Shown: positions 1,077 through 62,799 of the stretch, piece by piece
Position numbering within the stretch: position 1 is the first letter of the stretch
Layout: every line of letters begins with the position of its first letter
From: Mesostigma viride
Lineage: Eukaryota > Streptophyta > Mesostigmatophyceae > Mesostigmatales > Mesostigmataceae
Direction: 5' to 3'
NCBI GenBank assembly: GCA_009746045.1
Contig: RPFO01000082.1
Span: 2,697,266-2,761,265, forward strand
Length of the DNA: 64,000 bases
Notes under the pieces: generated by a model
What the model was told of the DNA's origin: nothing
What the model saw: only the letters and a program-made list of their open reading frames with translations
Databases searched by the model: none
Made by a program: the position numbers and the translations under genes

Positions 1077-1454
1077 CTGAGCGGATCAAGCAGGCGTCTT
1101 CCAGGTTGCCCATGTTGTAGCTCGAACCAATAATAAGATATACATGGGAGGAATCCTCGAACTGATTGTGGGCGCCGCGTGGCCAGCTGTCAGAGCTGTT
1201 CAAAGCGAGTCAGGCCGGCAGCCTTACCGGCTATCTCTTTGATTGCCTGATTAATGGTAGACACTGCCCTTTTAGGCATTTGTACATGCACCTTAGATAT
1301 ACAACATTCTTTATGGCGAACAAACTTAGTTATCTCCTAGGTAGTGTAGCATCCCAGCGGACTGTAAGTGGGAAAATGGCCGTTGACCATTGAAAGCCCA
1401 ATTTATTTAAAATAAGAAATCAGTCTCCTTGGACAAAAATTGTCGCTCGTGTTA
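1077..1454. other. intergenic, downstream of the peroxiredoxin
   Basis: About 380 bases that hold the 3' flank of the peroxiredoxin gene. I see no ORF with recognisable features and no repeat here. The first retroelement end begins near 1455 with an AATT-rich stretch. Confidence 0.5.
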
Positions 1455-1860
1455 ATTAGACTCGTGCATGCTCCCGGTGGGGAGTCACGGAGCATTAACC
1501 CCGATGGATGGATGGATGGGGGCAAGCAGTCCTAAACCTGTCTAATTTATCTACAACAGCTACCAACCACATCGATCTCAAGCTACCAACATCAACTCTA
1601 CCCTAGGTCGCTCCATGCATGTCAATGACGATCGATCGAGAAAAATGGTCAGCGCAGGCCGCCCAGAAATCTGGAGAATCCAGACACTCCATTATTTAAT
1701 TCCTCCCCACGGGCCCCGCGGCCCGTTGCTAGCCAGGACCGTAGAAGTCCGCAGGTCGAGGTTATTGGTCCTGAGGATAGCCGCTACACTACCGCCTCGT
1801 CTGCCATTACAGTAGAGGACAGCTCGAATGAGGATTACATCCCCATCTAGTGCTTAACGG
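1455..1860 (-). mobile_element. retroelement 3'-end fragment with terminal hairpin
   Basis: Antisense 3' end of a non-LTR element. Read on the minus strand it has a short CATC microsatellite (2-3 units, 1504-1518), then a GC-rich terminal hairpin (stem CTCCC/GGGAG, loop CACC on the sense strand, 1471-1484), then an AATTA-rich tail. The plus-strand words GGATGGGGGCAAGCAGTCCTA and TATCTACAACAGCTACC recur beside two sibling fragments at about 2040 and 3947. The 5' limit is not sharp. The stretch 1640-1690 also matches, in inverse orientation, the dispersed repeat at 4250-4500. Confidence 0.6.
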
Positions 1861-1984
1861 TTGGGGGATGATGCAGACGATATTTGTTTCAACTTTTGTG
1901 TAATTATTTTTCTAATGAGATTAGCCGCATAGTACTCCGTGGCATGCCTTTGCACATGACACACAAGTACTTAATTAAGTAATT

Positions 1985-2310
1985 AATTAATTAGACGCGT
2001 GCTCCCGTTGGGGAGTCACGGAGCATTAACCCCGATGGATGGATGGGTGGGTGCAAACAGTCCTACCGGTCTAAGCTATCTACATCAGCTACCTACATCT
2101 ATCTAACAGCATTACTAAGTACAACATCTATCTATACAGCACTGGCGTGCCTCCCACGGGCTTGCACACGCGGGCGCTTCCCCACAGGGGGGGGCTCGTC
2201 CTCTACGACCTGGGCCCACTTGGCCTTGTCCATCATCTTCTTCCGAATCACGGAGAGGCCTTATAGGCCCCCCATGTACTTACTTACTTTATTAATTAAT
2301 TAGAAACATA
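1985..2310 (-). mobile_element. retroelement 3'-end fragment with terminal hairpin
   Basis: Second antisense 3' end of the same subfamily. The hairpin is at 2002-2015 (CTCCC-GTTG-GGGAG on the plus strand). A two-to-three-unit GATG microsatellite follows at 2035-2047, then GGGTGCAAACAGTCCTA. The tail outside the hairpin is a TTAATTAATT run (1969-1993). About 300 bases are kept, so this is a severe 5' truncation. Another TTAATTAATT run at 2289-2302 marks the far side. Confidence 0.6.
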
Positions 2311-2489: not shown

Positions 2490-4080
2490 GGGGGGGCCGT
2501 TGGGAAGCCACGGAGCATTAACCCCGATGGATGGATGGATGGATGGATGGATGGATGGATGGATGGATGGATGGATGGATGGATGGATGGATGGATGGAT
2601 GGATGGATGGATGGATGGATGGATGGATGGATGGATGGATGGATGGATGGATGGATGGATGGATGGATGGATGGATGGATGGATGGATGGATGGATGGAT
2701 GGATGGATGGATGGATGGATGGATGGATGGATGGATGGATGGATGGATGGATGGATGGATGGATGGATGGATGGATGGATGGATGGATGGATGGATGGAT
2801 GGATGGATGGATGGATGGATGGATGGATGGATGGATGGATGGATGGATGGATGGATGGATGGATGGATGGATGGATGGATGGATGGATGGATGGATGGAT
2901 GGATGGATGGATGGATGGATGGATGGATGGATGGATGGATGGATGGATGGATGGATGGATGGATGGATGGATGGATGGATGGATGGATGGATGGATGGAT
3001 GGATGGATGGATGGATGGATGGATGGATGGATGGATGGATGGATGGATGGATGGATGGATGGATGGATGGATGGATGGATGGATGGATGGATGGATGGAT
3101 GGATGGATGGATGGATGGATGGATGGATGGATGGATGGATGGATGGATGGATGGATGGATGGATGGATGGATGGATGGATGGATGGATGGATGGATGGAT
3201 GGATGGATGGATGGATGGATGGATGGATGGATGGATGGATGGATGGATGGATGGATGGATGGATGGATGGATGGATGGATGGATGGATGGATGGATGGAT
3301 GGATGGATGGATGGATGGATGGATGGATGGATGGATGGATGGATGGATGGATGGATGGATGGATGGATGGATGGATGGATGGATGGATGGATGGATGGAT
3401 GGATGGATGGATGGATGGATGGATGGATGGATGGATGGATGGATGGATGGATGGATGGATGGATGGATGGATGGATGGATGGATGGATGGATGGATGGAT
3501 GGATGGATGGATGGATGGATGGATGGATGGATGGATGGATGGATGGATGGATGGATGGATGGATGGATGGATGGATGGATGGATGGATGGATGGATGGAT
3601 GGATGGATGGATGGATGGATGGATGGATGGATGGATGGATGGATGGATGGATGGATGGATGGATGGATGGATGGATGGATGGATGGATGGATGGATGGAT
3701 GGATGGATGGATGGATGGATGGATGGATGGATGGATGGATGGATGGATGGATGGATGGATGGATGGATGGATGGATGGATGGATGGATGGATGGATGGAT
3801 GGATGGATGGATGGATGGATGGATGGATGGATGGATGGATGGATGGATGGATGGATGGATGGATGGATGGATGGATGGATGGATGGATTGGATGGATGGA
3901 TGGATGGATGGATGGATGGATGGATGGATGGATGAATGGATGGATGGATGGGTGCATATGGTACACTCAATCCTATACTGGTCTTACTCTATCTACAAAA
4001 ACATCCTACTCACGAATATCGTGCTCCCGTTGATGAGTCGTTCACGAACGGACCATATCAGTAGCTCGATCGATGTCTTC
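2490..4080 (-). mobile_element. retroelement 3'-end fragment split by a giant GATG array
   Basis: Third antisense 3' end of the same subfamily. A decayed hairpin lies at 2496-2509, followed by CACGGAGCATTAACCCC exactly as in the copies at 1.48 and 2.01 kb. The GATG microsatellite comes next, here expanded to about 1.4 kb. Beyond the array the sibling sequence resumes: GGGTGCATATGGTACACTCAATCCTA, then CTATCTACA. The 5' limit near 4080 is approximate. The array therefore sits inside a transposon 3' region and not beside it. Confidence 0.6.
2526..3950. repeat. (GATG)n microsatellite, about 355 units
   Basis: An almost perfect tetranucleotide array. The only breaks are near its right end: GATTGG at about 3886 and GATGAATGG at about 3933. 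Because four does not divide by three, every frame of both strands is open, giving artificial MDGW and IHPS proteins of 460-560 residues. None is a gene. Its length in the assembly may not equal its true length. Confidence 0.95.
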
Positions 4081-4700: not shown

Positions 4701-4974
4701 TCGATGTCTAGCTGCGCTGACTCGAATCAACATGATTATAATTGTTGAGTCGTAATTCAACACCTGGATACGTATCAAGGAGGCAATTAACCATCCGCTC
4801 AATTACATGATATATCATGCATGGAAATGAAAGGATGTGGAAATGCATGTGCATGTAGCCTTCCATGCTATGGCTGGCCAGTCATTCAGCTGCAACACCT
4901 ATATGTTCATTGCATGAGAATGATGCCCATGTGTGCCCATGATGCGCCACACACCAGATGATTAATTAATTAAT

Positions 4975-6466
4975 TAATTAATTAGGAACATAACTCCGTT
5001 GGGAGTATATGTAGCACATAGCCCTGAGAAGGGGCATATGAGCCTACAATACATTCTAAGCTACTTCCTGCAAGGGTGGGAATGTAAACAACACTTGCTC
5101 TAGGTGCACCAGGGCACCCGCACCCTCATGGTCTATCACGCTATGCCCGGGTAAGGGGGGAGCATGCCTGTGAGGGGGAAGATCATCATGGCTATACAAG
5201 AGCTATGGCATGGCTTCTCAGCAGGGAGTGACTCCCTGCATGGGCACAATATTACTAAATAAGGCTAGGCATCGTCTGGAGTGTGGCTCATGCATCATAG
5301 GCACACATGTACATGATGAAATTAAGCGCGTGGCTTAGCTGGGATAGGGCCTCTAGGAGGCGTACATGTACATGGCCACGGTCTATCTATTCTACACTAC
5401 TACTGCTGTATTCCCCTAAGCTGGGGCGCCTGGAGTCGCTGGGGCCGCAGGGGTCGCCTGCCAGGGCTTGTGGCCGACGTAGATGGCCGCCCCCTTCCAC
5501 GGTACACCGGCTGCCCCGCCTTGGTCTGCCGGAGCTGGAGGTAGGTCGGCCATAGCTCCCGTCGCCGTTGTTGCTGCGCCAGGGTCAGGTCGTCATCAAG
5601 GGTGAAGAGAGTCTTCTCGAGCCGCTTGCGGCGTCTGAGAAAAGAAATCTTGTCCGCCGGGAAAGGTGAGAAGGAGCGGGGGCGGCCCTGCCTTACCCCG
5701 CGCGCGGGGAAGGCGGTGGGCGGCCAGCTCGATCTCACCAGTAAGGCCCATGCGATCAAGGATTTCTCTCTCAAAAGCACGCGCAAGCTTCTCGGAATTC
5801 TCACCTTCCTCCATCTTGAGATTCTTGACAATGACGTTAAGGCTGCGCTTGGCGAGCTCGGCCTCCTCGCGGAGGTCAAGCGTCTGCCGCTGGAGCTGTG
5901 CTGCGACGGCGGAGGTGGTGGAGGTGGTGTGCTGCTTAAGCATGTCCGCCCAGGTCGTGATGGGAGGAGCATCGCCGGCCAGGCCAGCCGAGGCTGGCTT
6001 GGCGGCAATGTCCTTCACTGCCTGGGCGGTGAGGCCTGCTGTGTTCTGCAAGACCTCGATAGCGATTGCATTATCCTTGAGGCGCTGGTCGATGTCGCGG
6101 AGCGGCTGGGCGGTGATGGAGTCAGAGGAGGGGATGGCGGCGGTGGAGGAGGCGAGGAGGGTGGAGGTGGCGGTGGAAATGGTGGAGAGGAGGGGGAGCT
6201 CGGCAGCCAACGTGCTGCCCATGGCCGCCACATCTGCAGCGATGGGGGCCACGTGCTGCTCGAGGGCCTCCTTGAGGAGTGAGCGGATGGAGGATTCGGT
6301 TAAGGTGGTGGTGAGGGGCTTTGGGGGCCAAAGCTCCTCGATGGAGCGTCCAAGGAGGGAAAAGAGGGCGAATTGCTGAAGGTGGGGGCGGCGGGCGTTG
6401 AGGACGGCCTTGTCGAAATAGCGCCTCTGGGAGAAGGCATTGACAAGGGTGACCAGATGATGCCTA
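4975..6466 (-). mobile_element. ORF1-only half element, copy A (5'-truncated)
   Basis: Minus-strand retroelement. Its 3' end has a (TTAA)n tail and hairpin ACTCC-GTTG-GGAGT at 4993-5006. The 3' untranslated region runs about 5010-5400 and the ORF1 pseudogene reaches 6466. No reverse transcriptase is present. Its N-terminal part differs clearly from copies B and D, so it represents another subfamily. The break at 6466 joins a plus-strand 3' fragment head to head. Confidence 0.75.
5400..6465 (-). pseudogene. L1-ORF1p-like RNA-binding protein, copy A
   Basis: Degenerate retroelement ORF1. Reading from 6465 downwards there is a helical, Ala/Thr-rich N-terminal part, then a linker with DIDQRLKDNAIAIEVLQNT. 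A short coiled segment (LREEAELAKRSLNVIVKNL) leads into an RRM-like block (LNVIVKNL ... ILDRMGLTGEIELAAHRLP ... PPLLLTF). The C-terminal domain is RRKRLEKTLFTLDDDLTLAQ, then LWPTYLQLRQTKAGQPVY. This order matches L1 ORF1p-like nucleic-acid chaperones. A 5-base deletion relative to copy B, near 5660, shifts frame right after LLLTF, so the product would be cut. No in-frame ATG is kept because the 5' end is truncated. Confidence 0.7.
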
Positions 6467-6745
6467 TAGCTTTATTTATTTTGTTATGAGCACTGTGCCC
6501 ACGCAGAGAGCTACTCTCTGCTGAGAGGCGCCTTGCCCTAGCTTCTGTATATAGCCATGCTGATCTTCCCCCCTCCAGATGTCGGTGCCCCTACTAGGCT
6601 AGGTGCCTGAACACAGATGTGGGCAGGTGCATGTACTTAGTGCACCCAGAGTAGGTGGCAGTTTACATTCCCCCACCTGCAGGAAGTGGCTAAGAGTGTA
6701 GTAAAAGCCATATGCCCCTTCTCAGGGCCATGTGCTACATATATT
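6467..6745 (+). mobile_element. sense 3'-UTR fragment of a half element
   Basis: This stretch is colinear with the 3' untranslated region of copy D at 51040-51290: the CTCTGCTGAGA motif, TTTACATTCCCCCACC and AAAAGCCATATGCCCCTTCTCAGGG. It runs on the plus strand, opposite to copies A and B on either side. It ends in GTGCTACATATA; the following 6745-6795 is the inverse complement of the RT element's 3' UTR near 12035-12085. It is probably a remnant of one arm of a head-to-head insertion. Confidence 0.6.
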
Positions 6746-6799
6746 ATAAAAATATAATTACTTTAATACAGCAGAGTGAAATCAGTATATATGAATTGA

Positions 6800-8845
6800 A
6801 TTGAATTGAATTGTAACATAACTCCGTTGGGAGTATATGTAGCACATAGCCCTTGAGAGGGGGCATATGGCCTATCATACATCCTAAGCTACTTCCTGCA
6901 AGGGTGGGGATGTAAACAACACTTGCTCTAGGTGCACCAAGGCACCTGCACCCTGATGATGTATCGCGCTATGCCCAGGGGGAGCGTGGCATGTGGGGGA
7001 AGATCATCATCAAGGAGACAACCAGCGCCTAGGCCAGCTAGGCTATACAAGAGCTATGGCATGGCGTCTCAGCAGAGAGTTACTCCCTGCATGGGCACTG
7101 CATAATTAAATAAAGCCAGGCATCATCTGGAGGGTGGCTCATCATAGGCACACATCATTGTACATGATGAAATTAAGCGCGTGGCTTAGCTGGGATAGGG
7201 CCTAGAGAGCTCTAGGGGGCGTACATGTACATGGCCACGGTCTATCTATTCTACACTTAACTACTGCTGTATTCCCCTAAGCTGGGGCGTCTGGAGTCGC
7301 TGGGGCCGCGGGGGTCGCCTGCCAGGGCTTGTGGCCGACGTAGATGGCCGCCCCCTTCCAGTACACCGGCTGCCCCGCCTTGGTCTGCCGGAGCTGGAGG
7401 TAGGTCGGCCATAGCTCCCGTCGCCGTTGTTGCTGCGCCAGGGTCAATTCGTCATCAAGGGTGAAGAGAGTCTTCTCGAGCCGCTTGCGGCGTCTGAGAA
7501 AAGAAATCTTGTCCGCCGGGGTCTTAAAGGTGAGAAGGAGCGGGGGCGGCCCTGCCTTACCCCGCGCGCGGGGAAGGCGGTGGGCGACCAGCTTGATCTC
7601 ACCAGTAAGGCCCATGCGATCAAGGATTTCTCTCTCACTAGCACGCGCAAGCTTCTCGGAATTCTCACCTTCCTCCATCTTGAGATTCTTGACAATGACG
7701 TTGAGGCTGCGCTTGGCGAGCTCGGCCTCCTCGCGGAGGTGGTGGAGGCCTCCAAGCGTCTGCCGTTGAAGCTGGGCTGGCAGCGACGGCGGAGGTGGTG
7801 GAGGTGGTGTGTTGCTTAAGCATGTCAGCCCAGGTGGTGATGGGAGGAGCATCGCCGGCCAGGCCAGCCGGGGCTGGCTTGGCGGCAATGTCCTTCACCG
7901 CCTGGGCGGTGAGGCCTGCGGTGTTCTGCAGAACCTCGATAGCAATGGCGTTGTCGCTGGTCGATGTCGCGGAGCTGGGCGGTGATGGAGTCGGTGGAGG
8001 CGGAGGCCGGGGGGGGGGGGTGGAGGCGAGGAGGGCGGCGGTGGCGGTGGGGATGGTGGGGAGCTCAGCAGCCAGCGTGCCGCCAATTGCCGCCACATCT
8101 GCAGCAATGGGCGTCACGTGCTGTGAGAGGGCGGCGTGGAGGTGGTGGACGAAGGTGGATTCGGTAATGGGGGCGGGGTGCAGAAGGTCCTCGGCCGAGC
8201 GCTTAGTGAGGGTAAAGAGAGCTGCGAGCTGAAGGCGGGGGCGAGACCAGCCGGCCAGGTTGGTCGACGAGTCTGAGACGCGGTGGGAATGCCGGCCGTC
8301 AACTCCGTTGCGGAAAAAATGGGTGTGGAAAGTGAGTTGCTGGCACAGGGCCAGCAGTGAGGCGTGTGACCCGTAAAACACGAGCTCCAATATCTTGATG
8401 GGTGGCATGTCGAAAAAGGCAGGCCTGTTGACGTCAAAGCTGGTGGTAAAGAGCCTGTCGACGTCAAAATCACGCTCAGACCAGCCAGGTTCGCCTGGGC
8501 GACTGCGCTTTGGGTCAGGCGATGCAGAGGGCGAGGAGAGCCCGGGAGGGTTCTGGGCGACCACTGGTGGGTCAGTGCGCGACTAGTGTCACCACCGCCT
8601 TCCGGCCCTGATGGCGAAGCTGCAGCCGTAGCTGCAGACGTATTTTCAGTGCCGAGCGCAGCCGTCAGGCTGCGTTGCGTCGATGGGCGTTTGCTCATCG
8701 TATATTGCGTAATAGCGTCGGAAAATTATATCAGCATGCGCGTCTTAGAAAGACGAAGCGATTGTGATATTCACGACTAAATTCGGTGCTCAAACGTGAA
8801 AGTCATGAGCGCCGCCGTCAGCCATGCATGGCTACCTCGTGGCAG
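6800..8845 (-). mobile_element. ORF1-only half element, copy B (near full length)
   Basis: About 2.0-kb element on the minus strand. The 5' end near 8843 (minus-strand GCCACGAGGTAGCC) matches the 5' end of copy D at 49316 to within a few bases. The 3' end has hairpin ACTCC-GTTG-GGAGT at 6821-6834 and a (CAATT)n tail at 6792-6813. It carries ORF1 and no reverse transcriptase. Two distant copies sharing both ends argues for a genuine self-contained unit, in the manner of mammalian HAL1 half-L1 elements. It abuts the plus-strand RT element head to head. Confidence 0.75.
7277..8698 (-). pseudogene. L1-ORF1p-like RNA-binding protein, copy B
   Basis: Retroelement ORF1 broken into three frames. It starts at ATG 8698 (MSKRPSTQRSLTAALG) and shifts frame near 8565 into GLSSPSASPDPKRSRPGEPG, with FFDMPPIKILELVFYGSHAS following. 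A second shift near 7790, at a small insertion absent from copy D, leads into the coiled and RRM-like part (LREEAELAKRSLNVIVKNL ... ILDRMGLTGEIKL). The C-terminal domain ends LWPTYLQLRQTKAGQPVYW, then GAAIYVGHKPW and TAA. A basic PKRSRP patch could bind RNA or act as a nuclear signal. The first frame shift is shared with copy D; the second is private. Confidence 0.7.
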
Positions 8846-11800
8846 TATATATGTGCTCGGTGCCCGGAAGCTCACTGCCAGCGGGTGTACTCCATTCACG
8901 GGCGCGCTCAGCTGACGCGCGCGCCTGTGTTGCTCAACGGCCCCTCAACCGGCCAGCAGTCCCGGCCCCCTCCCCCCCTCCCGCCTCGGCTCCCACCGGC
9001 TCCCAGCCCCCGCCGCCCGACTACTCGGCCAGTTGGCGTTGGCTTGACACGGTTCCCTGGGATGCATGCGCCATCAATTACCCGACGTCTACCCTGACCG
9101 ACCTCCCCCACCGCGCGCGTAGCCTTTTCGCGCAATGTGCAATCGTTTCTCTCCGGCGCATGCACGCCGCTCCGGACGACCCGCTGGGCTTTAAACTGCA
9201 CATGGTGACCCCCCGCCTGCTCCTCACCCCTCTCGGGCGTGGTGTGCGCGGCCTCCAGGGTGCGGTTATTGCCCGTTGCCGACGCTTTCTGCAGGGGGAC
9301 TGGGAGGGGCTGTTTGGCGTGCCGCCCCCGCGCACGGCCCGGCTGTCGGGGGAGGTCAACTTCGAGCGGGTGGCCGCCGACGTCATCCGCCTCGTCCGCG
9401 AGGGGCAGCTCAGCCGGGCCATGACCCGCTTGGAAATGGCCAAGCTGGCCCCCGCCAATGCGGCTACCCTGGCGGCCTTGGAGGCTCTTCACCCTGCGGA
9501 GCCCGGATTCCAGCTGCCCGTGCCGGACCCCCTGCCGGCCCCCCTCCGGCTGGACCGCGACTGCTTCCTGGAGGTGATGCGTGCGGTCCCGCGGGCTTCC
9601 TCTACCGGGCCGTCGGGCTGGCGCTACGAGCACTTGGAGGTCCTGGTGGGGCATGGGGGCGAGGACATTCTCTTTGACACCCTCATTGACCTGGCGGCTG
9701 GTCGCGTTCCTCCCGCTGCGCGCGAGTGGTTAGCGGGCGCTCGCCTCCTCGCTCTGCTCAAGGGTGTCTTGCCCCCCCCGAGGGCAAGGTGCGCCCGATC
9801 GCCTGCGGTGAGGTGCTCCGCAAGCTCGTGGGCAAAGTGATCTGCCGCCAAAAGGCGCCCGAGCTCCGTGCCTTTTTCTGCCCGCCCCTCGCAGCGGGTG
9901 AGACCTCGGTGGCGGCCCAGCTGGGGGTGACGACTCCAGGCGGGGCGGATATCCTCATCCATTCGGTGCAGGCCTACCTCGAGGCCCACCCCACCCACGC
10001 TGTCGTCAAGGTCGACTGCCACAACGCGTTCAACAGTCTGTCCCGCGCCAGCATGTTTGCGGCCGTCATGGAGTCCTTCGAGGACTTGTACGCTTGGACA
10101 GCCGTGTGCTACGGCCAGCCCGGCCAACTGGTTCACATCATGGAGGACGGCACTCGCGGCGGCCTGCTGTCGCGGTCGGGCACCCAGCAAGGGGACCCCC
10201 TGGGACCCCTGTACTTTGCCGCCCCCCTCCAGGGTTGCCTCCAAGCGGTCCATGCTGCCCACCCGGCGGTCGCTATTCAGGCCTACTTGGATGATATCTA
10301 CCTTCTGGGCCCTGTGCCGGACACCACCGCGGCTCTGCTGGCACTGCAGACCGCGGTGGCCGACATCAACCTCCAGTTGACCCTGGCCAAGTGCGCGGTG
10401 TACTCGCCCCAAGGTGATTGCTCCGGCTTTCCGCCCCAGCTCTTGGGCCGGGACGAGCGCCTCCATGGGTTGGATGTCCTCGGCGTTCCGGTTGGCGACC
10501 CCGCGTTTGTCATCGATGCTCTGCGGGCCGCCCTCGAGGCACGCACTGAGGTACTGCCCTTGATTGCGCGCCTTCATGATTCGCAGACCAAGGGTCTGCT
10601 TCTGTGGTTTTGCGCTCACCCTCGCGTCGTTCACTGGCTCCGGGGCGCTCTTCCGGCTCAGGTCCGGCTGGCCGCCGAGGGCCACGACGAACGCATCCAG
10701 TCGGCCTTGGCGCAGCTGGTCCCGGGCCCCGACCTCCCGCCACATGCTATTCGCATTGCCTCCCTGCCTGCACGGATGGGTGGCTGCGGTCTGACTCGTG
10801 CCGCCCGGCTGGCCCCAGCAGCATTTTTGGGCTCCGTCGCTCAGTCGTGGGCGGAAAGCTGCCGGCTCCTGCCCCTTTTGGCAACGGCAGCGCCTGACCT
10901 CCTGGACCCCAGCAGCCCTTTGCCCTTCGTCACCGCCATCCAGGAGGCCTATGCTGAGATCCAGCAGGCCTGTTCTCCCGTCCGTGCCGCTCAGGCGGTA
11001 CAGCGCCACCTCCCTCGCGGCACTCCCTCGGTCGCCTCCGTTCAATCTCCCGCCGCATTCCCTGCTCGCGTCATCGATAAACACCAGAAAACCTACGCGG
11101 GTATTCTGCACACGGCTGATTGGATTGCTCTTTTCGCGGACCTCAACGCCCAGGGACGTGCGTGGCTGTTCTCGCTTTCCTTGCGGAGTGTGGGCTCGGC
11201 GTACCTTCGTGCTCTTCCCATGGCCCCCCCATTCGCCTTGGCTCCCAGCCACTACTCGGTGGCGCTCCGGCACCAGCTATTTGCCCCGCAGCCTCTTGTT
11301 CCGGCCGGGCGGCCTTGTGGTAGCTGTGGGCAGCCGCTGGATCCCACGGGGACTCACTACCTTGCCTGCATGGGGGGCCAACAGAATCAGAATTGGTATT
11401 TGTATTTGCACACTGTCCTCCTGACGGTGGTGCTCGCCATGATTCGGTCGGTTTTCCCCCACGCGAACATCCGGTCCGAGGATGCGGATGGCGCTGCCTT
11501 CTATTCCCCCAACCACCGGCCTGACATCGTGGTGCTGGACTTTGAGGGGGGTGGCCGGCATCTGCTTATTGACGTTTCGGTGGCGCGGCCCTTGGCTCTT
11601 AGCCACGTGGCTGGGGCCTCCCTCACGGCAGGTTACACGGCGGACCGGGCGGAGCGGGCCAAGCTCCTGGCCTACGGCGACGTCGGGCACCATCGTGTGG
11701 TGCCCTTTGTCCTGGAGGAGTTTGGGGCCATGGGGCCCCTGACCTCCGCCTTCTTCAAGGAGTGTTGCCGGCTCCGGGAGGACCGGCTGGACCTGGAGGG

Positions 11801-11951
11801 CCAGCGGGCCCCATGGTCGGCGCGGACCTGGACGTCATATTGGCGTCAGCGCTTGTCGGTGGCGCTGACTCGGGCCATGGCTGACATCATGCTCCGCCGT
11901 ACGCGGGCTGATTTTGCGGTGCAGCAGGGCTATTCAGGTTCCTCCCGTTAG
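8846..11951 (+). pseudogene. reverse transcriptase with C-terminal restriction-like endonuclease
   Basis: Polyprotein of an R2/CRE-like single-ORF type LINE, now in three frames. The N-terminal remnant ICARCPEAHCQ...SIHG resembles the C2H2-type finger of this class. The pre-RT region (GQLSRAMTRLEMAKL ... TGPSGWRYEHLEVL) is in the second frame. A shift in a C run near 9772-9779 leads to the third frame, which carries the RT motifs: KVRPIACGEVLRK, KVDCHNAFNSLSR (motif A), GTQQGDPLGPLYFA (B), AYLDDIYLLG (C, with YLDD in place of the usual YADD) and LGVPVGD (E). The C-terminus has a CCHC knuckle (CGSCGQ...THYLAC) and then RPDIVVLDFEGGGRHLLIDV, the PD...D signature of the RLE. Stop TAG is at 11949-11951. 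Frame breaks in homopolymers may be sequencing errors. Confidence 0.85.
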
Positions 11952-12110
11952 GCGTTTCCATTGGTCTTATCGTAGTATAGAGCTTTGACATGGCTCTGTA
12001 TATAGGTTTATAGCTGGGCGTTTGCTTTGGTTTGAGTGATTTCACTCTGCTGTAAGTAATTATATTTTTAAAATATATGTGCTACATATAATATACTCCC
12101 AACGGAGTTA
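8846..12110 (+). mobile_element. RLE-type non-LTR retrotransposon (5'-truncated)
   Basis: Plus-strand LINE with a zinc-finger remnant, reverse transcriptase and C-terminal restriction-like endonuclease. The 3' UTR is about 160 bases (11952-12110) and ends in the hairpin ACTCC-CAAC-GGAGT at 12095-12108. Its 3' terminal sequence (TTTCACTCTGCTGTAAGTAA, GTGCTACATATA and the hairpin) is shared with the ORF1-only elements. The left edge coincides with the 5' end of the inverted copy B. No ORF1 precedes the RT in this copy, and no clear target-site duplication could be identified by eye. Confidence 0.8.
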
Positions 12111-12111
12111 T

Positions 12112-12505
12112 TCTGATTTGGCACGCCGCAAAGGTGAAAACCATTTGCGTACAGTGCCGGTCCGCGGAAAACGCGGAAAACGCGATCTGCAAATGAATCC
12201 GACCAGACTGTAGTCGAACTGGGGACCTCTCTCACCAACTTTTGCTGACTATAGGACGGACGTCTCTGGATCCTAGGGCATCGCCAACTTACACCTACAG
12301 TCATCCGCACCTACAGTTCTCCTTTCCGGGGAGTGATGCAAGCCTTTCGGATTTGGTACTAGATAAATCATTCGAGATCTGTGTGTAGGAGTACTACACA
12401 CGTGTCTGCACGCGAGACTTGTTCAGTCTCGCAACGTGAGACGGGCTGAACACGGCTGGAACCTTCTTTATTAGAAGGGGGCGTAGCCGGTACTATCGAG
12501 ATCAG
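12112..12505 (-). repeat. tRNA-related SINE-like repeat, copy 1
   Basis: This lies directly after the RT element hairpin. It is the inverse complement of the SINE-like unit seen better at 13302-13714. The T-arm-like region here is damaged (GACTGTAGTCGAACTGG in place of GACCGGAATCGAACTGG). It shares ATTCTGATTTGGCACGCCGC at one end and ACTATCGAGATCAGCCA at the other. Confidence 0.65.
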
Positions 12506-12509
12506 CCAG

Positions 12510-13300
12510 TACTATCGAGCTTAAGGACCAGCTCCTTACCCTCATGGGCCTGGTAGGTGAGGTAGAACTGCGTGGGTGCCACCGCCTTCCCCACTCACGG
12601 AACAAGGCGGCTCCCCCACAAGTCCTTCTCACCTTCCCCTCCCGTGAGGACGTACAAGCAGCGGTTCCTCTCTCGTCGCAAGCGGTTGCACGACCTCAAC
12701 TGGACGCTGGACGACGACCTGACCCCCGCTCAGCAGCAACAGCGACGACGGTGACCTGTGGCCTGAATACCTCCGCCACAAGCAGGACCCCCAGCAGCCC
12801 AAGGTGTACGTACTGGAGGGGCGGGGACCTGATGATCAACTCACAAGATGTGGACGCCCCCAGCGGGCTAGACTAGAATAGCCCTAGCTTGACTTCATTG
12901 GTAGTCACTGTTGCCATGGCAGCCATGCTTAGAATGTTTGCATGCCTAGCTGTGCCACCATACCTAGTCACGTGCACCGCTCACGCACGGTACACAACCA
13001 GCCATAGCCTTAATTAGCTTAGTCTTTGTACAGCCATGCTACGTCATGGCTTCGATCAGATTACTACTTGCCCACGCTCCTTGCTATGATGTGCTCACAT
13101 GGGTCTTATTGCACCCACAGTACGTTTGCCGGATCGGTAGCATGTCTTTTTTAGCTAGCGCGCCCGAATGCAGCTGTGGCATGCCTTTGGCATGAAGGAG
13201 ACTGGGGGTCTCTGCCCGTTCTCCTGTTGTGCACACACAGGGATTAAAAGCACTTCGGTGCTCCGAGACTCCCCAACGGGAGCACGAGTTTAATTAATTA
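12510..13300 (+). mobile_element. diverged half element, copy C (5'-truncated)
   Basis: Plus-strand element of a second subfamily. An ORF1 C-terminal remnant (12541-12870) is followed by a 3' UTR of about 400 bases. The 3' end is CGGTGCTCCGAGACTCCCC, then AACGGGAGCACGAG and a (TTAA)n tail. The terminal hairpin at 13269-13282 has stem CTCCC/GGGAG with loop CAAC. This is the sense version of the hairpins at 1471 and 2002. Confidence 0.65.
12544..12875 (+). pseudogene. ORF1 C-terminal remnant, copy C
   Basis: Fragment of the ORF1 RNA-binding protein, about 110 codons, with frame shifts. MGLVGEVELRGCHRLPHSRN corresponds to MGLTGEIELAAHRLPRARGK of the other copies. A second frame carries SRRKRLHDLNWTLDDDLTPA, and a third resembles LWPEYLRHKQDPQQPKVYV. 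The similarity is clear but much lower than among copies A, B and D, so it is an older or separate lineage. No function is expected. Confidence 0.6.
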
Positions 13301-13301
13301 A

Positions 13302-13714
13302 TCGAGATCAGCCAAGCGTATATTCTGATTTGGCACGCCGCAAAGGTGAAAACCATTTGCGTTCAGTGCCGGTCCGCGGAAAATGCGGAAAACGCGATCT
13401 GCAAACGAATCCGACCGGAATCGAACTGGGGACCTCTCGCACCAACTTTCGCTGACTATAGGACGGACGTCTCGATCCGGATCCTAGGGCATCGCCAACT
13501 TACAACTACAGTCATCCGCAAATTAAAGTTCTCCTTTCCGGGGAGTGATGCAAGCCTTTCGGATCTGGTACTAGATAAATCATTCGAGATCTGTGTGTGT
13601 AGGAGTACTACACACGTGTCTGCACGCGAGACTTGTTTGAACAGTCTCGCAACGTGAGACGGGCTGAACACGGCTGGAACCTTCTTTATTAGAAGGGGGC
13701 GTAGCCGGTACTAT
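13302..13714 (-). repeat. tRNA-related SINE-like repeat, copy 2
   Basis: Unit of about 413 bases. On the minus strand, 13467 to 13410 reads as a shortened tRNA of 58 nt. Its acceptor-like 5' strand TCCGTCC and 3' strand GGTCGGA pair with one mismatch. A box A-like TAGTCAGCGAAAG lies at 13459-13447 and a box B AGTTCGATTCC at 13427-13417. The anticodon arm is missing, so it is not a working tRNA. It looks like a Pol III-type SINE head followed by an unrelated body. A second partial unit begins at 13715. Confidence 0.65.
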
Positions 13715-13795
13715 CGAGATCAGCCAAGCGTATATTCTGATTTGGCACGCCGCAAAGGTGAAAACCATTTGCGTTCAGTGCCGGTCCGCGGAAAA
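13715..13795 (-). repeat. partial tandem SINE-like unit
   Basis: The first 80 bases of the same unit repeat here head to tail (ATCGAGATCAGCCAAGCG, then ATTCTGATTTGGCACGCCGC). They stop at GGTCCGCGGAAAACGGAGTT, where a retroelement hairpin remnant (GGAGTTATGTTTCTAATTCATG) takes over. This gives a tandem arrangement with period about 413 bases. Confidence 0.65.
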
Positions 13796-14264
13796 CGGAG
13801 TTATGTTTCTAATTCATGAATTTACTAATGATAATGATATTAATAATATCCCGAAATGCTAGACCGGCATGCGACAAAAGGAAACTGCGCCCATGTCAAA
13901 GAGGAAGGACCGTAAAGAAAAGACCTATACATGATTTAGTTATTAAAATTACACATAATGGATCGATAAGCTTACAGTGCGGTTTCCATTGAGGGTGTTT
14001 CCTCTTCAAATGCATGCGGGCGGGAGCTCCTTATCACTCTGACTTTTTGGCAATGCAACATAATGCAACCTATCATGGCTCTGCACTCAGCGCATCACAC
14101 ATGATCCGCCATGCTTCCGGCCACTTAGAAGGTAATAAGCAGGTGGCGTGGTCTGCGGCTCTGCACAGTCGGAGCTCAACGACACACTCAACCCTGTGGC
14201 ATTGCCTGCACAGTGCAGCCAACACTTGAAACCCTAACGGGCGACACTTTTGACGCCTTGCCGA
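13796..14264. other. 3' flank of the MINDY-4-like gene
   Basis: About 470 bases with AT-rich sequence at 13800-13960 and no coding features that I can defend. It should contain the 3' UTR and polyadenylation region of the minus-strand gene ending at 14265. Confidence 0.4.
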
Positions 14265-30987: not shown

Positions 30988-33900
30988 AAGAAGAAGGGGC
31001 CGAGGCGCTCCTGAGCGCTGCATCGTCCTCGTCCTCGTGGCTGTGGACTGGCACCTCAGGCGGAGACCCGCAACTCGTGGCGGCGCGCCAAGCATGGCTC
31101 ACGGGAACAAGGGTGACGGCGGCTGGGAGCATGAGCGCGATGATTGGCCACATCCTGTCGGGCCAGGGGGCAGCGTCGGGGGATGCCGCCACAAGGCACG
31201 TGGCGGCGCCAGCAGTAAGAGGAGTCGTGGGGGAAGGGGCCGTGAGGGACGCTCCTGTGGAGTGGCCCAGCGATGGAGCCAGTCGCCCCCCAGCAGATGA
31301 CACAGCCAGTCGGCCTACAACCGATCAAGCAGGTCGTCGGCCTCCAAGGGGGCCCAACGGTTCTCCTGGGATTGGTGAGGCGACGCCCGCATCCAGGGCC
31401 AATGGCCATGCGCAGGAAGGGGTGGTAAATTCCGGCAGGGGGGGTGTACGGGACTACGGCGCCAGTGCTGGCAGCAGATGGGAAGATGCCGCCACCGGTG
31501 CAGCCACTGGTGCGGGGCAGGGGGGGTCAACCACGGCGTGGGACGCCGAGCTGACGGACCTGGACTCGGTGGAGGCGTCATTCCATGAGACGATACGCGG
31601 GGCAGAGGAGGTAGGCAGGGGTGGCTGGATGGAGTGCTGTCGGGGTGGCTGTCGCCGTCCATCATATGACAGAAGCATCTTTGTTTTACTACTAGTATAA
31701 ATAGTCCATCATATGACAGAAGCATCTTTGTTTTACTACTAGTATAAATACCGAGCGTGCAGTAGAATGATGGCAACATTCTTTGTCGTTATGTTGCGGT
31801 GCTTCTTTTGGCATGGGAACAGGAATCTTAACAGGCATCCTCAATGAAAAAAAGGTAGGGCGTCTGGGATGCATCTGGCCCCTCACCACCTAGGCTTTGG
31901 TTTTGGGCGAGGGTCTTCTGCTTGCGATGACGGGCGTGATCCTGCGGCAGCTTACGTAGATCTATGCAGTAACTAAAAATAAACTATCTACTGGTTTTCA
32001 GCACCCACCATTCAGAGTCTCACTTTTTATGACTGACACCCTCCTTGCACGCGTGGTAGTAGAACCAGACGCCCTCTTTGTCTAATGATCTCCAGCACAT
32101 AAGTTACACAAGCCGCTAGCTTATAATTTTTATGCGCTAATCGCTTATCGGCGCACATCCTTGCGCAAGGCATTGTCGCATAAAAAGTATCAGCTAGCGG
32201 CTTGTACAGCCTTATACACTGCAAGCCTTCCCGGCACGAACAGCATGTTTGTACCAGTCACACCCATCAACCAGAGCAAAGGACTGACTCTCCGGCACCC
32301 ACGCCCACCACCCGCCACCACCCGCCACCACCCTGTTCCGGCCACTACCCTCTTGTCCCTGGCAGGTGCGACCCACCAGCGACCCGTCCATGTCCCTGCG
32401 CGTGGACCAAATGCTGGGAGGTACGCCAGCAGCAATACTCTTGTTTGATTGGTTGGTACCACGTCTATGTCAACGCAACCATCTGCACATGCATAATGTG
32501 TGTTGTTTAGCATAGTCGACACTCTGCACGGGTTTGGCATGTGTTGTGAAGCCTATTTGACATTCTGCACCGGCTTGGCCATGTGTTGCTAAGCCTCTTT
32601 GATCCCTACGCCCACTTGATAGGAATGCATGTGTGATACTGTATCCATTTGGCGGGATGGCAGAGCCGCCAAGGCATAAGCCCAACGCAAGCCACCCCAC
32701 GCAAACCCTCGGGCGCACAAAATACAGCGGATGCACATCCGCGCCCCTCGAAACTCTTGCATCCGTAACGGTGGATTCGTTGGAGGGCACACACATCAAG
32801 GTGGAAGTGGAATGGTCTGCCCTATGCTATCACGCTTACGTTGCACACATCTGTGCGCTGACCCCTGACGCCGATCATTGGTCAATGGGAGCGGCAATCC
32901 AACGGTCAGCAAGCGGGTGGAGGGCAATCTTTTGCGGACAAGGCCGTTTGCCTGGCAGTTATGATCTCAGTCTTGTGTGAAGAAACTGCCGATCGCTCGT
33001 TCGTGTGATTCGTATTCCCATGCTTTTTGTTGGTTCGTTTTTTTGTTTGTCTTTTTGTCTGTTTGTTCGTTCGGTCGGTCGGTCGGTCGGTCGGTCGGTC
33101 GGTCGGTCGGTCGGTCGGTCGGTCGGTCGGTCGGTCGGTCGGTCGGTCGGTCGGTCGGTCGGTCGGTCGGTCGGTCGGTCGGTCGGTCGTCGGTCGGTCG
33201 GTCGGTCGGTCGGTCGGTCGGTCGGTCGGTCGGTCGGTCGGTCGGTCGGTCGGTCGGTCGGTCGGTCGGTCGGTCGGTCGGTCGGTCGGTCGGTCGGTCG
33301 GTCGGTGGGCTGGTTGGTTGGTTGGTTGGTTGGTTGGTTGGTTGGTTGGTTGGTTGGTTGGTTGGTTGGTTGGTTGGTTGGTTGGTTGGTTGGTTGGTTG
33401 GTTGGTTGGTTGGTTGGTTGGTTGGTTGGTTGGTTGGTTGGTTGGTTGGTTGGTTGGTTGGTTGGTTGGTTGGTTGGTTGGTTGGTTGGTTGGTTGGTTG
33501 GTTGGTTGGTTGGTTGGTTGGTTGGTTGGTTGGTTGGTTGGTTGGTTGGTTGGTTGGTTGGTTGGTTGGTTGGTTGGTTGGTTGGTTGGTTGGTTGGTTG
33601 GTTGGTTGGTTGGTTGGTTGGTTGGTTGGTTGGTTGGTTGGTTGGTTGGTTGGTTGGTTGGTTGGTTGGTTGGTTGGTTGGTTGGTTGGTTGGTTGGTTG
33701 GTTGGTTGGTTGGTTGGTTGGTTGGTTGGTTGGTTGGTTGGTTGGTTGGTTGGTTGGTTGGTTGGTTGGTTGGTTGGTTGGTTGGTTGGTTGGTTGGTTG
33801 GTTGGTTGGTTGGTTGGTTGGTTGGTTGGTTGGTTGGTTGGTTGGTTGGTTGGTTGGTTGGTTGGTTGGTTGGTTGGTTGGTTGGTTGGTTGGTTGGTTG

Positions 33901-48722: not shown

Positions 48723-49314
48723 TTAAACAGTGCTGGTAGTGACCATAGCTCATCAGCTACTGTGCCGGTAAAATTGCGCTGCACTACTGGCTGTTATGAG
48801 CTTGTGCCACTGCCTTTCTATTTAGTGTAAACATGTCTATCATGCAAGGTCCACATGCAATGTCTATCATGCAAGGGCAGCATGATCTTGCTGGATGTGA
48901 ATGATCGACATTTTGTTCCAGCCAACGCTTTTATCGACTTGTCTACTTCATTGCATACATGCGCAGCCAGGCTTGCACAGCCAGGCTTGCACAGCCAGGC
49001 TTGCACAGCCAGGCTTGCACAGCTAGGCTTGCACAGCCAGGCTTGGGCTTAGACATATCTTCAAAATTACAACACTGGCCATCTTCATATGGAGGCGCGA
49101 GCACGTGTTATGGTTTTTCATCTAGAGAGAGCTATATATATTATTTGCGGCGTGCCAAATCAGAATGTATATTATTTGCATTTGCACGGTCGTACGTGTG
49201 AAGTCGATGTCTCTTTGGTGTGTTTGAAAGCAGCATGGCTAATTTTGCAAGTAAGTACTTGCGTGTCATGCGCATAGGCATGCATGCCACCCCCAAGTAA
49301 GTAAGTCAGCCACG
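48675..49314. other. convergent intergenic region
   Basis: Downstream flank of the NDK-like gene. It holds the 14-bp array at 48964-49047 and a short SINE-like remnant at 49143-49175 (TTTGCGGCGTGCCAAATCAG), the end of the repeat family at 12112-13795. Retroelement copy D starts at about 49315. No gene is seen. Confidence 0.5.
48964..49047. repeat. 14-bp minisatellite, six units
   Basis: Six units of AGCCAGGCTTGCAC with one AGCTAGG variant. Confidence 0.9.
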
Positions 49315-51307
49315 AGCCACGAGGTAGCCATGGCTGACGGCGGCGCTCATAACTTTCACGTTTGAGCACCGAATTTAGTCGTGAATATCACAATCGCTTC
49401 GTCTTTCTAAGACGCACATGCTGATATAATTTTCCGACGCTATTACGCAATATACGATGAGCAAACGCCCATCGACGCAACGCAGCCTGACGGCTGCGCT
49501 CGGCACTGAAAATACGTCTGCAGCTACGGCTGCAGCTTCGCCAGCAGGGCCGGAAGGCGGTGGTGACACTATAGTCGTGCACTGGTGGTCGCCCAGAACC
49601 CTCCCGGGCTCTCCTCGCCCTCTGCATCGCCTGACCCAAAGCGCAGTCGCCCAGGCGAACCTGGCTGGTCTGAGCGTGATTTTGACGTCGACAGGCTCTT
49701 TGCCACCTTCGACGTCAACAGGCCTGCCTTTTTCGACATGCCACCCATCAAGATACTGGAGCTCGTGTTTTACGGGTCACACGCCTCACTGCTGGCCCTG
49801 TGCCAGCAACTCCATTCCAACACCCACTTTTTTCGCAACGGAGTTGACGCGGCCGGTTTTCCCACTGCGTCTCAGACCGCGTCGACACCAACCTGGCCGG
49901 CTGGTCTCGCCCCCGCCTTCAGCTCGCAGCTCTCTTTACCCTCACTAAGCGCTCGGCCGAGGACCTTCTGCACCCCGCCCCCATTACCGAATCAACCTTC
50001 GTCCACCACCTCCACGCCGCCCTCTCACAGCACGTGACGCCCATTGCTGCAGATGTGGCGGCACTTGGCGGCACGCTGGCTGCTGAGCTCCCCACCATCC
50101 CCACCGCCACCGCCGCCCTCCTCGCCTCCACCCCCCCCCCTCCCTCCGCCTCCACCGATCGACTCCATCACCGCCCAGCTCCGCGACATCGACCAGCGTC
50201 TTAAGGACAACGCCATAGCTATCGAGGTTCTGCAGAACACCGCAGGCCTCACCGCCCAGGCGGTGAAGGACATTGCCGCCAAGCCAGCCCGGGCGGCTGG
50301 CCTGGCCGGCGATGCTCCTCCCATCACCACCTGGGCGGACATGCTTAAGCAACACACCACCTCCACCACCTCCGCCGTCGCAGCCCAGCTTCAACGGCAG
50401 ACGCTTGACCTCCGCGAGGAGGCCGAGCTCGCCAAGCGCAGCCTCAACGTCATTGTCAAGAATCTCAAGATGGAGGAAGGTGAGAATTCCGAAAAGCTTG
50501 CGCGTGCTTTTGAGAGAGAAATCCTTGATCGCATGGGCCTTACTGGTGAGATCGAGCTGGCCGCCCACCGCCTTCCCCGCGCGCGGGGTAAGGCAGGGCC
50601 GCCCCCGCTCCTTCTCACCTTAAAGACCCCGGCGGACAAAATTTCTTTTCTCAGACGCCGCAAGCGGCTCGAGAAGACTCTCTTCACCCTTGATGACGAA
50701 ATGACCCTGGCGCAGCAACAACGGCGACGGGAGCTATGGCCGACCTACCTCCAGCTCCGGCAGACCAAGGCGGGGCAGCCGGCCGGTGTACTGGAAGGGG
50801 GCGGCCATAGATCTACGTCGGCCACAAGCCCTGGCAGGCGACCCCCGCGGCCCCAGCGACTCCAGACGCCCCAGCTTAGGGGAATACAGCAGTAGTAGCA
50901 TGTAGAATAGATAGACCGTGGCCATGTACATGTACGCCTCCTAGAGGCCCTATTCCAGCTAAGCCACGCGCTTTACTTAATCATGTACATGTGTGCCTAT
51001 GATGAGCCACACTCCAGACGATGCCTAGTTTTATTTAGTAATGCTGTGCCCATGCAGAGAGCTTCTCTCTGCTGAGATGCCACGCTCTAGTTTTTGTATA
51101 GCCATGATGATCTTCCCCCTCACAGGCATGCTCCCCCCTTACCCGGGCATAGCGTGATAGACCATATGAGGGTGCGGGTGCCCTGGTGCATGCACCTAGA
51201 GCAGGGGTAGCTTACATTCCCACCCTTGCATGAAGTAGCCTAGAATGTATTAAAAGCCATATGCCCCTTCTCAGGGCTATGTGCTACATCTACTCCCAAC
51301 GGAGTGA
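49315..51307 (+). mobile_element. ORF1-only half element, copy D (near full length)
   Basis: Plus-strand element of about 2.0 kb between the convergent NDK-like and apolipoprotein-L-like genes. The 5' end GCCACGAGGTAGCC agrees with copy B. The 3' end has hairpin ACTCC-CAAC-GGAGT at 51292-51305, then GATGTTGATAATTAATTAATT. Across their shared length, copies B and D are very similar apart from small indels, so both are fairly young. There is no reverse transcriptase. Confidence 0.78.
49457..50895 (+). pseudogene. L1-ORF1p-like RNA-binding protein, copy D
   Basis: ORF1 starting MSKRPSTQRSLTAALG at 49457. The frame changes near 49585 (as in copy B) into SSPSASPDPKRSRPGEPG and PIKILELVFYGSHASLLA, again near 49860, and again in a C run near 50130-50145. 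The last frame holds DIDQRLKDNAIAIEVLQNT, the coiled LREEAELAKRSLNVIVKNL, ILDRMGLTGEIELAAHRL, and LWPTYLQLRQTKAGQP. A four-base duplication then moves the C-terminus out of the frame used in copy B (VYW...IYVG), ending at 50895. It is not translatable as one protein. Confidence 0.7.
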
Positions 51308-51410
51308 TGTTGATAATTAATTAATTATGGGCACCCAGCTGATCTTCTTGCACAATCAACGCAGTATAAACCATCAACATCCAATCCTCACGATATATGC
51401 ACGGCTTGAC

Positions 51411-51545
51411 GACGTATTAAAATTAAATTAAATTAAATTATAACATGCCTCCGTGGGGAGGTCATGTAGCACATATTTCATGATGGATGGGGTGGAGGAA
51501 GCCGCGTGATCGAACTATCCTAACTCTATCTAGAAAATCCTAACT
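51411..51545 (-). mobile_element. third-subfamily retroelement 3' end
   Basis: Antisense 3' end with an (AATTA)n tail at 51417-51441. The hairpin at 51447-51462 has stem GCCTCC/GGAGGT, 6 bp including one G-T, and loop CCAC in sense. The short GATG microsatellite and CTAACTCTATCTAGAAAATCCTA recall the fragments at 1.5, 2.0 and 3.95 kb. It abuts the stop codon of the minus-strand gene at 51549. Confidence 0.6.
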
Positions 51546-51548
51546 GCA

Positions 51549-62799
<11,251 letters not shown>

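Follow-up and report, generated by a model that had tools for sequence, protein, structure and literature searches.

A 64,000-nt stretch of the Mesostigma viride genome (contig RPFO01000082.1 of assembly GCA_009746045.1, positions 2,697,266 to 2,761,265), hereafter the window, contains several copies of a retrotransposon of ~2 kb that encodes a single open reading frame (ORF) of the ORF1 kind. We refer to these as half elements. Two near-full-length copies, A and B, align end to end at 90.2% (A 6799–8843, minus strand; B 49316–51326, plus strand). They have common 5′ and 3′ ends and carry one ORF each without a reverse transcriptase (RT), as a sequence-only reading of the window had described. 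A third copy, C, aligns with B at 87.7% (C 4971–6390, minus strand). Half element D (plus strand) is interrupted and consists of three pieces which, when joined, are 74% identical to a half element over 342 columns, and every piece scores above all 200 base shuffles. Next to these copies is an RT element that is putatively of the restriction-like endonuclease (RLE) type. We consider it likely that the half elements are non-autonomous long interspersed nuclear elements (LINEs) of the HAL1 (half-L1) type, with T2, a LINE of the apurinic/apyrimidinic endonuclease (APE) type, probably providing in trans the ORF2 protein that copies their RNA, and that the RLE-type RT element is unrelated to them. 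Coordinates are collected in Table 1.

Half elements form a family with fixed ends

Genome searches covered the 439.9-Mb assembly (2243 contigs), whose 33 matches to the chlorophyll a/b-binding family mark it as that of a photosynthetic eukaryote. The half 3′ end gave 3064 first-look candidates, of which 40 were scored at 98–100%, with two further short pieces at 92 and 97%; the 5′ end gave 1651, with 40 again scored at 98–100%. These first-look numbers are not counts of confirmed copies. Five places were common to the top-40 lists for the two ends, with a spacing of 1928–1986 nt, and two of the five are the sources of the query sequences. Four loci (prefix L) were fetched via the 3′ end. Three contain full-length elements (1.96–1.98 kb) with the same 5′ end, while the fourth contains a 5′-truncated half element beside an inverted copy. 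The half element is composed of a 5′ untranslated region (UTR), one ORF1, a 3′ UTR and a hairpin tail, with no ORF2, and ends in the tail and an ATT-type microsatellite without poly(A). In L042, the frame spans 470 codons and is open from stop to stop. Flanks share 10–11 nt at the junctions of A, C and L044, compared with a maximum of 7 nt in cross pairs; L041 shares 7 nt, equal to that maximum, and B, L042 and L058/L059 share 5 nt.

The half elements are a real, young, high-copy ORF1-only family with fixed ends. An origin by random truncation is ruled out by the uniform ends of the fetched copies. The proposal of a HAL1-like family with many copies and both ends fixed is supported by the fetched loci and the end searches.

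The RT element is nested in half element D

The RT element has its ORF in two frames (8809–9840 and 9690–11951), and RVT_1 (6.9e-11) is its sole significant Pfam family. The endonuclease motifs, a PD..D after a CCHC-like knuckle, were seen by eye only and gave no hit in the PDB. The sequence-only reading placed this element at 8846–12110, gave it a 3′ end in common with the half elements and made it their partner. Its true extent is 8858–12079, and positions 12080–12111 are the tail of D. A genome search with 11950–12115, the RT 3′ end plus tail, returned at least 24 matches, and counts from it are lower bounds. Besides the window's own sequence, those listed comprise 17 RT 3′ ends from elsewhere, five half-type tails alone and one 55-nt piece. 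All 17 listed RT 3′ ends elsewhere stop at the equivalent of window positions 12078–12087, without a half-type tail. For half elements and the RLE-type RT element, the common 3′ end is limited to this locus among the at least 24 matches examined, and that partnership is withdrawn.

Sixteen RT loci were fetched. Four copies match 8858–12079 at 99.5–99.8% and extend upstream by 96, 329, 823 and 1067 nt, therefore the window copy is 5′-truncated. A half element is not attached 5′ of any of the four, which led us to reject a composite unit in which half A and the RT element stand head to head and the inverted 48-nt piece serves as terminal repeat. The junction test used 21 of 23 RT junctions, leaving out L037b (no left flank) and L039c5 (no 3′ end). 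Flanks share a mean of 11.4 nt, with at least 9 nt in 17/21 and ATATG in 16/21. Cross pairs, which also have the target motif, share a mean of 8.1 nt, with at least 9 nt in 150/420. Among the 17 junctions of at least 9 nt, that of the second copy in L026 has element sequence in common with its tandem neighbor, and the short junctions are those of L029 and L033 (7 nt each), L025 (5 nt) and L032 (4 nt). Together, the flank sharing and the ATATG occurrences suggest that the RT element prefers an ATATATG target.

This preference would explain the location of the RT element in the tail of D. D was entered, in an order that we can only infer, by C (duplication ATCATCTGGT), by the short minus-strand RT piece at 6737–6784, by A (duplication CATATATACTG) and, in its tail, by the RT element, which used an ATATATG site and duplicated 11 nt of target (ATATATGTGCT). 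With D in pieces around these insertions, the supposed shared 3′ end is the tail of D, which served as the insertion target. The RLE-type RT element thus appears to be an unrelated bystander in an older half copy, and nested insertions can imitate a common 3′ end.

Site-preferring RLE-type LINEs include R2, R4/Dong and others. The RT element resembles them in its apparent preference for a short target and in its RLE-like motifs, but differs in being a bystander here and in its N-terminal frame. The upstream part of this element in L031 (2602–4758) has a RING finger in that frame (zf-RING_2, 5e-11) and a C2H2-like motif noted by eye, possibly representing an E3 ligase domain in a retrotransposon. 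The C run at the frame change has the same length in five of six copies and differs in the sixth; slippage, a shared defect or a homopolymer miscall could each account for it.

Table 1. Retrotransposon features of the window, with target-site duplications (TSDs) and match details
Feature	Position	Strand	Details
Half element A (ORF1-only)	6794..8842	minus	Tail (CAATT)n; TSD CAGTATATATG at 6783-6793 and 8843-8853
Half element B, full length	49309..51327	plus	Without clear TSD
Half element C, 5′-truncated	4963..6451	minus	TSD ACCAGATGAT at 4953-4962 and 6452-6461
Half element D, first of the visible pieces (3′ UTR), split by C	4846..4962	plus	Local score 32, versus at most 18 in 200 shuffles
Half element D, second piece (3′ UTR)	6453..6743	plus	Score 133, versus at most 21 in 200 shuffles
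Half element D, 3′ tail, earlier taken for the RT element's shared 3′ end	12076..12111	plus	Score 21, versus at most 15 in 200 shuffles
RLE-type RT element, 5′-truncated	8858..12079	plus	TSD ATATATGTGCT at 8847-8857 and 12073-12083; frame change at C run ~9770-9780
48-nt piece matching the RT element 3′ end	6737..6784	minus	89.6% to 12037-12080; read as a 5′-truncated insertion in D
T2 3′ fragment (proposed APE-type partner LINE)	51416..51693	minus	99.6% over 278 nt to L046
T3, second ORF1-only family, 5′-truncated	12509..13301	plus	Tail motif at 13265; TSD TCGAGATCAGCCA by eye at 12496-12508 and 13302-13314
T4-type LINE 3′ tail fragment (proposed partner tail of T3)	1975..2100, approximate	minus	Tail motif at 2019, minus
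Second T4-type tail fragment	1450..1560, approximate	minus	Tail motif at 1486, minus

The window also contains very long tandem arrays at 2520–3960 and 33010–34410 (TGGA units; an array with copies spaced by 8), with several open frames on both strands.

T2 is the proposed partner of the half elements

When the loci fetched up to that point were scanned for tails, T2 came to light as an element with a related 3′ end and no half element upstream. A search gave 1272 candidates, and all 40 scored places, the window's own among them, are identical over 161 nt. The T2 ORF2 in L048 is open over 1064 codons and matches RVT_1 (2.5e-23); its match to Exo_endo_phos (9.8e-5) reaches 22.7 bits, under the cut-off of 24.5. 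Of four longer copies, L055, L056 and L057 have an open ORF1 of ~397 codons, which is broken in L054. T2 therefore has the predicted features of a young APE-type LINE, with ORF1 upstream and with endonuclease and RT in one ORF. The nearest solved chain to its RT is human L1 ORF2p (3.6e-13), with R2 at 9.1e-11, which leaves the clade unsettled. T2 may be RTE-like. No T2 5′ end was found in four fetched T2 loci, of which only L052 overlaps the T2 probe.

The half tail matches that of T2 (L048) at 81.7% (E 2.5e-7), in a region confined to the last ~60 nt. In the T2 copies L048 and L049, nothing matches the ~400-nt half-specific 3′ UTR that precedes the tail. An alignment of 17 tails has 13 invariant columns and contains two hairpins, ATGTGCTACAT and ACTCC-CAAC-GGAGT. 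In these tails 91.6% of pair cells are paired, compared with 28–54% in slid versions, and one pair is changed on both sides (A-U/C-G/U-G/G-C). Covariation, tested with five measures, gives modest support for the structure. The 5′ UTRs of half and T2 align with a score of 27 (match 1/mismatch −1), reached by 0 of 1000 shuffles, and the C-terminal parts of their ORF1 proteins align in hhalign (E 2.9e-6, probability 88%, 103 columns, 28% identity). These similarities suggest that half and T2 have common ends and a common, distant ORF1 ancestry. Because the half tail matches an APE-type LINE instead of an RLE-type one, the contrast with mammalian HAL1 that the sequence-only reading drew from an RLE-type partner, as opposed to an apurinic-type one, vanishes.

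A further LINE type, in L045 (2075–6490), has an intact 1472-codon APE-RT frame with a weak zf-RVT match, and this frame length was found in 10/48 matches. It was rejected as a partner, as the fetched 8 kb, 1.5 kb past the ORF included, has no half-type tail; its own 3′ end was not located.

T3 and T4 form a second tail-matched pair

T3 (window 12509–13301; L027, L036, L040) is a second ORF1-only family with a half-type ORF1 (34–50% identity over longer pieces), known without its 5′ end. At four of seven distinct T3 tails, ORF1 ends 455–486 nt before a tail that differs from that of half and T2, and none of these four has a T2-like ORF2 within 2.5 kb upstream. Of the remaining three, L031 lacks a visible ORF1, and the other two offer less than 460 nt of upstream sequence. 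T4 has an ORF2 that is 46–47% identical to that of T2 and ends 192 and 512 nt before the tail at two of five T4 tails; none was seen at the other three. In L061 the T4 tail lies ~140 nt behind an open frame of 1100 codons. T4 has its own ORF1, of 501 codons in L060, and in L063 its 5′ start resembles that of T2.

T3 and T4 tails match over 44 nt at 93.2% (E 7.8e-15). Mean tail scores are 21.9 for half–T2 and 9.7 for half–T4, versus 25.4 for T3–T4 and 11.6 for T3–T2, in a comparison of six of ten half tails and four of seven T2 tails that left out L001 (the same place as the window) and the unassigned tails (L026, L043 and window 4039). We count this second pair, with a tail of its own, in favor of tail-matched partners. 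The window T3 fragment lies between copies of a ~400-nt unit in direct repeat (12109–12508, 13321–13718 and 13733–13797), with related pieces at 2334–2474 and 49144–49166, both on the minus strand.

ORF1 phylogeny and constraint

Over 136 columns of nine ORF1 sequences, half and T3 are 47–48% identical and T2 and T4 35%, while cross pairs reach 25–29%. The IQ-TREE phylogeny splits half and T3 from T2 and T4 (support 99.6/100); the separation of half from T3 has support of only 78/71. Broken or short sequences (L040, L024, window T3 and L054) were left out. A topology joining each ORF1-only family to its tail-matched LINE is rejected (AU test, p 0.0012), as is the third topology. The T2 and T4 branches are long, so long-branch attraction is possible. 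Taken at face value, the tree would unite the ORF1-only elements in a single lineage whose tails match those of different LINEs.

The ratio of nonsynonymous to synonymous substitution rates (dN/dS) was estimated for in-frame ORF1 C-terminal parts (189–205 codons) of six half copies, giving 15 pairs; half A, which is short with its start out of frame, was left out. The 13 pairs with dS above 0.1 have dN/dS of 0.14–0.46, with all upper bootstrap bounds at or below 0.71. Examples are L042–L056 (0.36, 0.24–0.52), L042–L041 (0.39, 0.23–0.67), L042–L044 (0.15, 0.05–0.34) and L041–L044 (0.27, 0.15–0.48). The two closest pairs, L041–L043 (0.56, 0 to 2.0) and L042–B, are uninformative. For the N-terminal part, L042–L056 gives 0.47. 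L056 is a half element: it has the 5′ end and the 3′ UTR typical of the family, and a T2 insertion flanked by the duplication ATGCCTTTAT interrupts it. Values for T2 ORF1, 0.72 (0.45–1.16) and 0.68 (0.41–1.06), are indistinguishable from 1. The ORF1 of the half subfamilies thus appears to be constrained.

The ORF1 N-terminal part in the L041, L042, L044 and L047 half elements is only 50–53% identical to L042, while the 5′ UTR and C-terminal part of three of those loci are ~88–95% identical to B at the DNA level. Module swapping between half subfamilies is possible.

Half ORF1, described as L1-ORF1p-like in the sequence-only reading, has no match to Transposase_22 and no other significant match in Pfam, and no relative among PDB sequences, where the best hit (E 0.027) is a designed protein. 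A low-confidence predicted model (pLDDT 61) has a long helix followed by a helix, two strands and a long helix. In a Foldseek search with this model, human L1 ORF1p appears weakly at ranks 23 and 27 (E 1.1 and 1.2), and the VIA list is mostly composed of helical and coiled-coil chains.

Proposed mechanism and alternative origins

In the mechanism that we propose, the T2 ORF2 protein, with its APE endonuclease and RT, would recognize the tail common to half and T2. More generally, the T2 and T4 ORF2 proteins would bind matched tails and copy half and T3 RNA, respectively, by target-primed reverse transcription, with ORF1 protein probably still required in cis. This combines the logic of guinea pig HAL1 (PMC3627910) with tail recognition in stringent SINE/LINE pairs (PMC3747384).

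Several points weigh against this interpretation. Mobilization was deduced and none was observed. The tail common to half and T2 is short, and pairs changed on both sides are not above shuffles (472/500), nor are pair types (125/500). Under 2/−3 scoring the 5′ UTR match is weaker, at 24, a score that 6/1000 shuffles reach, and the unrelated 8-kb locus L045 gives 23. Half and T2 ORF1 proteins are only ~25% identical, and target duplications exceed every cross pair at three of the seven half junctions only. The N-terminal part of half ORF1 is far more diverged than both of its flanks, which makes the half elements look like mosaics, so some of the ORF1 history may be captured. An autonomous ancestor or captured segments could be the source of the constraint seen in ORF1.

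A more specific form of the T2 and T4 partnership, which we advance tentatively and rate just short of an even chance, is that the ORF1-only elements belong to a single old lineage, longer-lived than any one partner, with selection on their own ORF1 and ORF2 supplied in trans through the tail match. The tail of half matches T2 and that of T3 matches T4, yet the ORF1s of half and T3 are closest to each other, which would imply that tails were exchanged or co-evolved with the partners. The hairpin module of ~40 nt would then set partner choice.

Alternatively, the source of the half elements could be a different autonomous member of the same LINE clade, either lost since or missed here, in which case ORF1 would be a passenger. 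The divergence of half ORF1 from both T2 and T4 is in line with such a source, and the near-identical L041–L043 pair is uninformative about constraint. However, the dN/dS values of copies with dS over 0.1 stand against a passenger ORF1, and the 5′ end and 3′ UTR common to L056-type and L042-type halves suggest that they diverged as half elements. We regard this origin as doubtful.

A recent deletion of T2, in the manner of the young HAL1s of L1, would account for the related 5′ UTR, ORF1 and tail, but is very improbable. The low ORF1 identity, between families that both hold near-identical young copies, indicates that the half elements are not a recent deletion of present T2; the half 3′ UTR is unmatched in the two T2 copies compared, and the partner topology is rejected in the ORF1 tree. 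Mobilization by the adjoining RLE-type RT element, suggested by the half-type tail directly 3′ of it in the window, is hardly credible given the tail-less RT ends listed elsewhere, the insertion's own target duplication and the joining of that tail with the other pieces of D.

Relation to known systems

Mammalian HAL1 (Bao and Jurka 2010, through PMC5322556, PMC3627910 and PMC8535693) is described in these sources as ORF1-only, with target duplications, many copies and ORF2 supplied in trans. It is L1-derived with a poly(A) tail, and in guinea pig its ORF1 coding capacity is kept (PMC3627910). The half elements are similar in being ORF1-only without RT and in having uniform ends and, in some copies, target duplications. 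They differ in the hairpin and microsatellite tail, in the ORF1 tree, where the ORF1-only families stand separate from the two LINEs, and in having two families, each matched to a different LINE. They would thus work like HAL1 without being HAL1 in the strict sense of an L1-derived, poly(A)-tailed element. Stringent-type pairs of short interspersed nuclear elements (SINEs) and LINEs, including Chlamydomonas SINEX families with RandI and L1-1_CR (Ohshima 2013, PMC3747384), also involve a non-autonomous element with the 3′ end and hairpin of a LINE; unlike those SINEs, the half elements are ~2 kb long and protein-coding. A literature search found no ORF1-only LINEs outside mammals in the parts of sources it reached, which is weak evidence of absence as subscription papers and Repbase reports were thinly covered.

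Judged from sequence comparison, Mesostigma viride would display HAL1-like biology outside mammals, twice in one genome and with partner-matched tails, with trans-mobilization as its presumed basis. The known ORF1-only retrotransposon is HAL1, which belongs to mammalian L1. The algal case would be independent of it; it is young and abundant, comes from a photosynthetic eukaryote, and its partner has a hairpin tail instead of poly(A). Two tail types within one genome allow a ready 2x2 test of the idea that the 3′ hairpin by itself fixes the pairing of LINE and RNA, and the same system could tell whether ORF1 protein must act in cis.

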